The notes beneath the pieces are model-generated. The model made no database searches. It was not told the origin of the DNA and saw only the letters and a program-made list of their open reading frames with translations. From positions 124,001-188,000 of the forward strand of contig JACZKQ010000089.1 of assembly GCA_014859965.1 (NCBI GenBank): DNA of 64,000 nucleotides, read 5' to 3'. Shown one piece after another: positions 25,858 to 30,923 of the stretch. The translations under genes were made by a program, and so were the position numbers. Origin of the DNA: Phycisphaerae bacterium (GTDB lineage: Bacteria > Planctomycetota > Phycisphaerae > Sedimentisphaerales > Anaerohalosphaeraceae). How positions within the stretch are numbered: position 1 is the first letter of the stretch; each line of letters starts with the position of its first letter.

Positions 25858-26700
25858 TCAGCTCGTTGCCGATTGTTCGCCTGGCTTGTCCGCTCCGGCC
25901 GCCGGCGCCGGGGCTGTCCGGCCGCCACTCTGAGGCCGGCCTGCCGATCCGCCGCCGCCACTCCTGCGAGGGCCGCCACCGCCGCCACCACCGCCGCCTT
26001 GTCCGCCGCCTTCGCGACGGGGTCGCTGCGGACGACGCGGCCGAGCCACAGGCGTGATCTCTTCGCCGAATTTGCCCTTGTAAATCCATACCTTGATTCC
26101 GATTTTCCCATAGGTCGTACGGGATTCGGACAGTCCATAGTCTACATTCGCATCGAGCGTCTGAAGTGGAATACTACCCATCTTCTGCGTTTCCGTGCGG
26201 GCGATTTCCGCCCCTGCAAGCCGTCCGCTGCAGATAATTTTTACACCCTTGGCCCCGGCATTCATGGCGTTCTCGCACTGGCTCTTCATCGCCCGCCGGT
26301 ACGACGCACGCTTTTTAAGCTGTTCGGCGATCGCCTCGCCCACAAGCTGGGCATCCAAAGCCGGTTCCTTGATCTCGATTACGTTTACGTTGATCTTGCG
26401 ATCAACCAGCTCTTCGAGTTCTTCCTTGAGCGTCTCGACCTCTGCGCCCCGCGGGCCGATAACCATACCGGGCCGCGCGGTGAAAAGCGTCACCTTGACC
26501 TCGTTGCGGGTCCGCGCGATCTCTACCTTCGCCACCGCTGCATACGGAGGCTTTCGATTGAACCGCGTATCGATATATTCCCTGATCTTCCAGTCCTCGA
26601 TCAGGAATTCGCCGTAGTTGGCCTTCGGAGCAAACCACGTGCTCTGCCAGTTGAGCGTGATGCCTGTTCTAAACCCTGTTGGCGATGTTTTCTGACCCAT
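25858..26700 (-). CDS. rpsC: 30S ribosomal protein S3 with long Gly/Arg/Pro-rich tail
   Basis: Residues 1-218 are a normal S3: MGQKTSPTGFRTGI start, a KH domain with IGPRG at 81-85, and the closing GKIGIKVWIYKG. S3 guards mRNA entry on the 30S head and has helicase activity in other bacteria. Residues 219-280 form a low-complexity tail with PRRPQRPRRE, a run of nine glycines and PRRSGGGG, ending in an Ala/Pro-rich stretch; E. coli S3 is 233 residues. The frame is intact through the repeat. Confidence 0.96.
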   Translation of the reverse strand: MGQKTSPTGFRTGITLNWQSTWFAPKANYGEFLIEDWKIREYIDTRFNRKPPYAAVAKVEIARTRNEVKVTLFTARPGMVIGPRGAEVETLKEELEELVDRKINVNVIEIKEPALDAQLVGEAIAEQLKKRASYRRAMKSQCENAMNAGAKGVKIICSGRLAGAEIARTETQKMGSIPLQTLDANVDYGLSESRTTYGKIGIKVWIYKGKFGEEITPVARPRRPQRPRREGGGQGGGGGGGGGPRRSGGGGSAGRPQSGGRTAPAPAAGADKPGEQSATS

Positions 26701-26732: not shown

Positions 26733-27281
26733 CTATTCTTCCGTTACGGTAACATGTAAATGGCTGGCTTCTTTGCGGATCGGATGTGCCCGTCCGCGGT
26801 CCTTGGCGATCCAGCCCTTGGTGCCCAACCGACGCCCTGCGCCGTCGACGCGGGCCTCACTGACTATGAGTCTCTCCACGTCCGCCTCGGCCTCGTCGGC
26901 ATTGGCGATGGCGCTTTGGAGAAGTTTCTCTATCATCCTCGCCGCGCGTTTGTGCTCGAACTTCAAAACATCCAGAGCCTTTTGCGCCGGCAGCCCCGCG
27001 ATCATGTCCGCCACAAGGCGGGCTTTACGAGGTGCGGTCGGTGCATAACGATACGAAACCCGCCACTCGGATATCTCGACGGCTTCCACACCCAGGCCTC
27101 CCGCCAGGTGCTCCACATCTGTCGCCGTCGGCAAAGGCTTGTAAAGGCGCCTCTTCCAGTTGCGGATCGCGCTGGCCGCGTCCTTGCGGCTCAAGCCGCC
27201 GCGCGCCACGTGACCCGCAAGGTTATCGACGCTCATCTTGAGCTCTTCACAAAGTCCGCTTAGTTTGTCGCCGCTTAACAT
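26733..27281 (-). CDS. rplV: 50S ribosomal protein L22 with N-terminal helix-turn-helix-like extension
   Basis: Residues about 72-182 match L22 (YAPTAPRKARLVADMI, closing HPIRKEASHLHVTV), whose hairpin lines the peptide tunnel. Residues 1-70 are extra. They read like a Cro/C1-type helix-turn-helix, with SRKDAASAIRNWKRRLYKP followed by TATDVEHLAGGLGVEAVEI. ATG at 27281 has AAGG 7 nt upstream. A GTG at about residue 64, preceded by GGGAGG, is an alternative start that would give a normal-sized L22 but leave some 230 nt of open frame unused. Identity as L22 is sure; the start is less so. Confidence 0.92.
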   Translation of the reverse strand: MLSGDKLSGLCEELKMSVDNLAGHVARGGLSRKDAASAIRNWKRRLYKPLPTATDVEHLAGGLGVEAVEISEWRVSYRYAPTAPRKARLVADMIAGLPAQKALDVLKFEHKRAARMIEKLLQSAIANADEAEADVERLIVSEARVDGAGRRLGTKGWIAKDRGRAHPIRKEASHLHVTVTEE

Positions 27282-27326
27282 CTCAAAACCTTACTTCCAA
27301 AGATGAAGGATTTGACGTCCTTACGC

Positions 27327-30558: not shown

Positions 30559-30923
30559 CCCTAATCCTCAATAACTAATCTACAATGTCTCTACATCTGT
30601 ATCAGAAAGTCCGTTACACTATCAGCTTGCAATGCAAAGGCAAGGAAAATATAAAAATTCCGCAATGAGACACCGCGTCCCTTGTCTTTTTGCACTGTCC
30701 GAAGGCAGGAAAGGCCTGATTATCGCCTTCCTTCAAATTGCCCGCGAATCGGAGTGCGCCTCTTCTACACTCGTTTCATCACCACCCCAAACGAGGCACA
30801 TTCTTCCCTCCGGCCATCGCGAGCCTTTTTCTACCGTCCGTGTACCAATCACTTGATGTGAACCAGCCCAACTCGGTACGCACGGCAGTCCTTTCCGTGC
30901 TCGCTTCGGCTGTAAAACAACGG
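30559..30923 (-). other. Long untranslated leader of the S10 block
   Basis: About 360 nt lie between the predicted start site near 30917 and the rpsJ ATG, and no protein-coding frame with a ribosome site was found. Two foldable elements stand out on the minus strand: a GCACGG/CCGTGC stem near its 5' end (30881-30901) and a terminator-like hairpin at 30653-30684. The length is typical of leaders that carry feedback control by a ribosomal protein, but no known motif could be identified. Confidence 0.5.
30653..30684 (-). terminator. Possible attenuator hairpin in the S10 leader
   Basis: On the minus strand CAAGGGAC pairs with GTCTCATTG (one bulged A, one G-T pair), and a run of five T follows five bases later. 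It lies about 95 nt before the rpsJ start. Confidence 0.35.

Follow-up and report, generated by a model that had tools for sequence, protein, structure and literature searches.

The analysed stretch of DNA (64,000 nucleotides, hereafter the window) carries on its minus strand a fusA-S10-spc cluster, with the genes in the order fusA, S10, L3, L4, L23, L2, S19, L22, S3, L16, L29, S17, L14, L24 and L5. The L22 gene, rplV, is flanked by rpsS and rpsC within the S10 part of the cluster, is present in a single copy, and encodes the only L22 of the genome. Its product is a uL22 protein with an ordinary core and the L22 fold. It matches PF00237 from residue 77 with 99.3 bits (cut-off 28) and TIGR01044 with 81.5 bits (cut-off 73.65). 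A fold search with the predicted model was filled by L22 proteins. Residues 70/71–182 align with solved L22 chains, the best of which, 8buu_S, superposes with a Z score of 18.9 and an rmsd of 1.7 over 109 residues, tunnel hairpin included. Judged by the start of the PF00237 match and by the alignment with solved structures, about 70–76 extra residues precede the core, in agreement with the first-pass annotation, which had put them at about 70.

The protein resembles uL22/rplV (PF00237, TIGR01044) in its core fold, its place between rpsS and rpsC and its single copy, and differs in having an additional N-terminal helix-turn-helix (HTH) domain, predicted to be folded, and a three-residue insertion in the tunnel hairpin. 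The insertion is found across the order Sedimentisphaerales (VDGAGRRxGTKxW, as against VDEGP---xKRF in other Phycisphaerae), and a three-residue insertion is also present in L22 of the solved Deinococcus 50S subunit (4u67). It may alter the shape of the tunnel or the response to macrolides. The hairpin tip reads KDRGRAHPI in the class, versus PRARG or PRAMG in other planctomycetes. The neighbouring S3 protein has a long glycine/arginine-rich C-terminal tail, at about residues 220–280.

Table 1. Features at and around rplV, in window positions.
Feature	Position	Strand	Basis
rplV open reading frame, 182 aa, ATG start	26733..27281 including stop (coding 26736..27281)	minus	
L22 core, residues 73–182	26736..27065	minus	PF00237 from residue 77 and structure alignment
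Predicted N-terminal HTH extension of L22, residues 1–72	27066..27281	minus	alignments, selection, AlphaFold2, profiles
Helix 1, residues 4–14	27240..27272	minus	AlphaFold2 model
Helix 2, residues 18–25, with LA motif typical of Cro/C1 HTH	27207..27230	minus	AlphaFold2 and conservation
Helix 3, residues 32–43, recognition-helix equivalent	27153..27188	minus	AlphaFold2 and conservation
Helix 4, residues 53–63, with DVxxLAxALGV motif	27093..27125	minus	AlphaFold2 and conservation
AAGG Shine-Dalgarno-like site before the ATG	27289..27292	minus	sequence
In-frame GTG, codon 65, proposed alternative start	27087..27089	minus	kept in only 15/81
Tunnel hairpin with three-residue insertion, L22 residues 147–160	26802..26843	minus	
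S3	25858..26700	minus	
RNA element R1, covarying, upstream of rpsJ (S10), the first gene of rplV's cluster	30860..30915	minus	covariation, order-wide matches
Second conserved hairpin upstream of rpsJ	30704..30733	minus	

Coding status and predicted fold of the extension

Searching contigs of related genomes yielded 80 relatives that align from residue 1, which together with the window form a comparison set of 81 Sedimentisphaerales sequences. The long form occurs in genomes of the same family and of the same order, nearly all aligned over the complete N terminus, apart from one fragment, a few matches beginning at residues 3–12 and one genome without a match. In all 81 sequences the ATG is at the same position and the frame is uninterrupted, and the length of L22 varies only from 179 to 182 residues. 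Across this set, mean pN is 0.34 and mean pS 0.76 in the extension, versus 0.19 and 0.79 in the L22 core, so that amino-acid changes are far rarer than silent ones. In close pairs the dN/dS ratio is roughly 0.1–0.4, as in L102 and L109 (dS 0.35, dN 0.03), and the extension has about twice the evolutionary rate of the core. A Shine-Dalgarno-like tetramer is found within 20 nucleotides before the ATG in 47 of the sequences. The extension frame thus has the marks of a translated sequence under purifying selection; it is conserved at the amino-acid level, and its frame is not broken by the stop codons that the first-pass annotation had named, along with drift, as evidence against it.

That annotation had also considered a dual start, or a coupled upstream frame, with initiation at the in-frame GTG. 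Neither is supported, and a dual start is unlikely, because this GTG is present in only 15 of the 81 sequences and 11 of them have no ATG, GTG or TTG at residues 55–82, whereas the ATG and the frame are conserved. For the same reasons, and given the conserved protein sequence, the idea that the extension is an annotation artefact, an upstream frame followed by an L22 that begins near residue 65, is almost certainly wrong, although the GTG does exist in the window.

The AlphaFold2 model of L22, built from the 81-row alignment, has a mean pLDDT of 90 (85–97 over residues 1–150) and a pTM of 0.82. In this model the four helices listed in Table 1 are followed by a fifth, at residues 67–70, which leads without a linker into the L22 strand at residues 71–80. 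In number and order the five predicted helices are consistent with the Cro/C1 fold, in which the HTH would lie at helices 2 and 3. Residues A38, N41, W42, P49 and A60 are invariant in a class-wide alignment of 34 sequences.

Profile comparisons point in the same direction. Single members of the extension family match HTH_19 (E 8e-8), HTH_3 (E 1e-5), HTH_31, HTH_26 and phage repressor families (E 8e-8), and Pfam cut-offs are passed in two relatives, with 32.5 bits for HTH_19 (cut-off 30.2) and 25.8 bits for HTH_3 (cut-off 23). When the extension family was aligned by hhalign with 19 HTH_3 domains from three genomes of the class, the probability was 96% and the E value 6e-9 over 54 columns, as against 1e-3 for the best of 20 column-shuffled control profiles. 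The extension of the window alone shows no significant match to a Pfam or NCBIfam family and reaches no Pfam HTH model, and a convincing relative was not found in a collection of phages. The structure prediction and HTH_3 (PF01381) search proposed in the first-pass annotation have thus borne out a confident helical domain, with an HTH_3 match in a relative, but not a Pfam HTH match for the window sequence by itself.

Taken with the model, these matches uphold the earlier suggestion of a Cro/C1-like HTH fused in frame to L22. The extension is very probably a Cro/C1-type domain, and a derived one, since the hhalign alignment places extra residues between helices 2 and 3 relative to the canonical HTH. 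The L22 of the window is accordingly a two-domain protein, in which the predicted HTH, residues 1–72, runs directly into strand 1 of an otherwise normal uL22. Its likeness to Cro/C1 (XRE) domains (HTH_3 PF01381, HTH_19 PF12844, HTH_31 PF13560; carph-isopro NF046037) extends to a profile match over nearly the whole domain, to the order of the helices and to the pattern LA...W..G...P...LA..LGV. It differs from them in its fusion to a ribosomal protein, in a variable recognition surface and in a longer loop between helices 2 and 3, the canonical LAxxxGVSxxxIS being replaced by LAxxxxRGGLxxxxAxxAxxNW; most members, the window included, fall below the Pfam cut-offs.

Lineage-specific extensions of ribosomal proteins are already known but, to our knowledge, folded domains of regulatory type have rarely been gained by universal ribosomal proteins. 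The L22 of Mycoplasma (NF008917, PRK12279) is likewise fused to added sequence, but it does not match the HTH extension, and its added part is C-terminal because the L22 match starts at profile position 12 of 311. Lineage-specific additions at one end of uL22 are also found in Cutibacterium acnes and in plastids (PMC10085706, PMC5071890). Those additions are reported on a normal core without a named domain, whereas the HTH described here is predicted to fold autonomously. No description of an HTH-L22 fusion was found among the papers searched, and the two-domain L22 is real, conserved and apparently unreported.

Distribution and history of the fusion

In a sample of 150 genomes of the class Phycisphaerae, the long L22 was found in 31, of which 22 belong to the window's order, 8 to family f8 and 1 to family f12; a second f12 genome, beyond this count, has it as well. 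HTH-L22 therefore occurs throughout Sedimentisphaerales and in two further families, which make up a second branch of Phycisphaerae. The long form is absent from the other 113 genomes of the sample that have an L22, and short L22 frames were found in many other families of the phylum among the part of the frames that was read. Loss or truncation of the domain was not seen within the order. A search of the class with the extension profile revealed no free-standing copy, the domain being found solely as part of L22; weak matches were obtained in f10, inside a frame of 497 residues, and in genome G336 (E 0.0097).

The extensions of the order and of f8/f12 are homologous as judged by profile searches, because a hidden Markov model built only on sequences of the order detects the extensions of f8/f12 with E values of 1e-11 to 5e-19, whereas other reading frames of 28 HTH loci give 0.08 or more. 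They are also of the same length and have the same junction with L22, and independent fusions in the two branches do not fit these properties.

The branches that bear the domain do not appear to be sisters. A tree of 11 ribosomal proteins places f8 and f12 within a clade with f9–f11 (100% support), apart from the order, the backbone having low support. Transfer of the whole rplV gene between the branches was considered and set aside: the L22 cores of f8/f12 are closest to those of f9–f11 (61% identity, versus 49% to the order), although an AU test on 103 L22-core columns does not reject the transfer topology (p 0.13). Compared with the core, the extension does not show low divergence between the branches. 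Both an ancestral fusion with repeated losses and an old transfer fit these data, and the L22-HTH fusion is an old inheritance, patchily kept, of two Phycisphaerae branches.

The start of the S10 operon differs between these branches. In a comparison of loci L332–L334, L336, L337 and L339 with L320–L327, fusA lies just upstream of rpsJ in many members of the class, but it was not found there in the f8/f12 loci taken.

Possible roles of the domain

The HTH domain may be built permanently into the ribosome and dock on 23S rRNA close to the tunnel exit. This reading, held at slightly less than an even chance, is thought the likeliest because of the conserved basic residues around helix 3, the mode of anchoring in C. 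acnes and the location of uL22. The protein is among those that surround the tunnel exit, a docking area of biogenesis factors (PMC5071890), and the N-terminal extension of C. acnes uL22 binds between H2, H24, H46 and the tip of H19 of the 23S rRNA (PMC10085706). By analogy with that species, whose extension is unrelated, the HTH would belong permanently to the 50S subunit and lie next to the exit on the solvent side, with its basic helix-3 face docked on 23S rRNA, probably around H2/H19/H24/H46. Its task might then lie in stabilising the assembly of this region and not in sequence-specific DNA repression.

Members of the order keep basic residues at position 6 (K/R, 100%), position 27 (R, about 80%) and positions 40, 44 and 48 (K/R, 93%, 93% and 83%). 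Most of these positions are around helix 3, with K/R44 just beyond it and the invariant A38, N41 and W42 within it, and the exposed recognition-helix positions 32–34, 36 and 37 vary freely. Because basic positions are kept and the recognition surface is variable, these patterns favour docking on the phosphate backbone over base-specific reading of DNA. Families f8 and f12 retain the basic residues only in part. Comparison of 23S rRNA genes, located by motif searches, between 19 domain-bearing and 18 domain-free genomes revealed no length change or set of positions that tracks the domain beyond controls, with 10 columns separating the two groups versus 3–108 in control groupings. Two of the 23S genes have large insertions, possibly introns or expansions: one of about 720 nucleotides near E. 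coli positions 1951–1975 (L301, from genome G312 of family f8), and one of probably several hundred nucleotides near positions 1176–1200 (L313, from G478).

Should uL22 indeed carry a fixed Cro/C1 HTH at the tunnel exit, this would show that little-studied phyla have ribosomes with domains that the model ribosomes lack. HTH-L22 offers a concrete target for cryo-EM and proteomics.

HTH folds can be reused for protein contacts, and the partner of the domain might be a protein instead of nucleic acid: either a ribosomal protein next to it or a factor for targeting, folding or nascent-chain processing. The position of uL22 in the docking area of biogenesis factors (PMC5071890) would suit such a platform, but the positions with the best-conserved charge are basic and clustered at helix 3, which points to nucleic acid and makes this alternative unlikely.

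It is similarly improbable, on sequence grounds, that unassembled L22 binds DNA, or the leader of the S10-operon mRNA, through the HTH and so represses its own operon. The domain does belong to a repressor family, and an RNA element, R1, is present between fusA and rpsJ, about 300–360 nucleotides upstream of the latter. R1 is 57 nucleotides long and has two helices; 8 of the 15 pairs show changes on both sides, 93% of cells are paired, and its covariation score was not reached in any of 500 shuffles. It gave 69 matches in 80 sources, the large majority of the order loci that cover the region, and is single-copy per genome. In the class sample it occurs in 22 of the 23 genomes of the order; it is present across the order except for one divergent family. 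It has no match in Rfam, and a search for resemblance to 23S rRNA, as expected of a mimic, gave no convincing match. R1 is likely a new leader of the S10 operon, and may serve another protein of that operon. It would be a candidate target if L22 does regulate itself, and a separate feature if not.

Against autoregulation by L22, R1 was not found in genomes of the class sample outside the order, f8 and f12 included. R1 does not follow the HTH domain outside the order, since both of these families have the domain without it. The upstream regions of rpsJ in f8/f12 share no dyad or k-mer, no palindrome or dyad upstream of rpsJ is common to most members of the order, and both the variable surface of the recognition helix and the lengthened loop before it speak against a repressor. 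As R1 is order-specific and missing from the second HTH-bearing branch, these results do not tie the domain to autoregulation. The narrower proposal that the Sedimentisphaerales HTH binds the R1 leader, so that a ribosomal protein with a gained repressor-type domain controls its own operon through RNA, is more doubtful still. A second conserved hairpin (AAGGAAGGC...GCCTTTCCT) is also found upstream of rpsJ; the 8-mer AAGGAAGG is present in 46 of 70 order loci, whereas no 8-mer exceeded 6 in one shuffle.

Finally, the domain could be a neutral passenger that stems from an ancestral fusion, is tolerated at the surface of the ribosome and has been lost more than once, as its patchy distribution, with several losses implied, and its evolution at about twice the rate of the core might suggest, but this is quite improbable in view of its persistence throughout the order, the strong purifying selection and the invariance of A38, N41, W42 and A60 in two distant branches.
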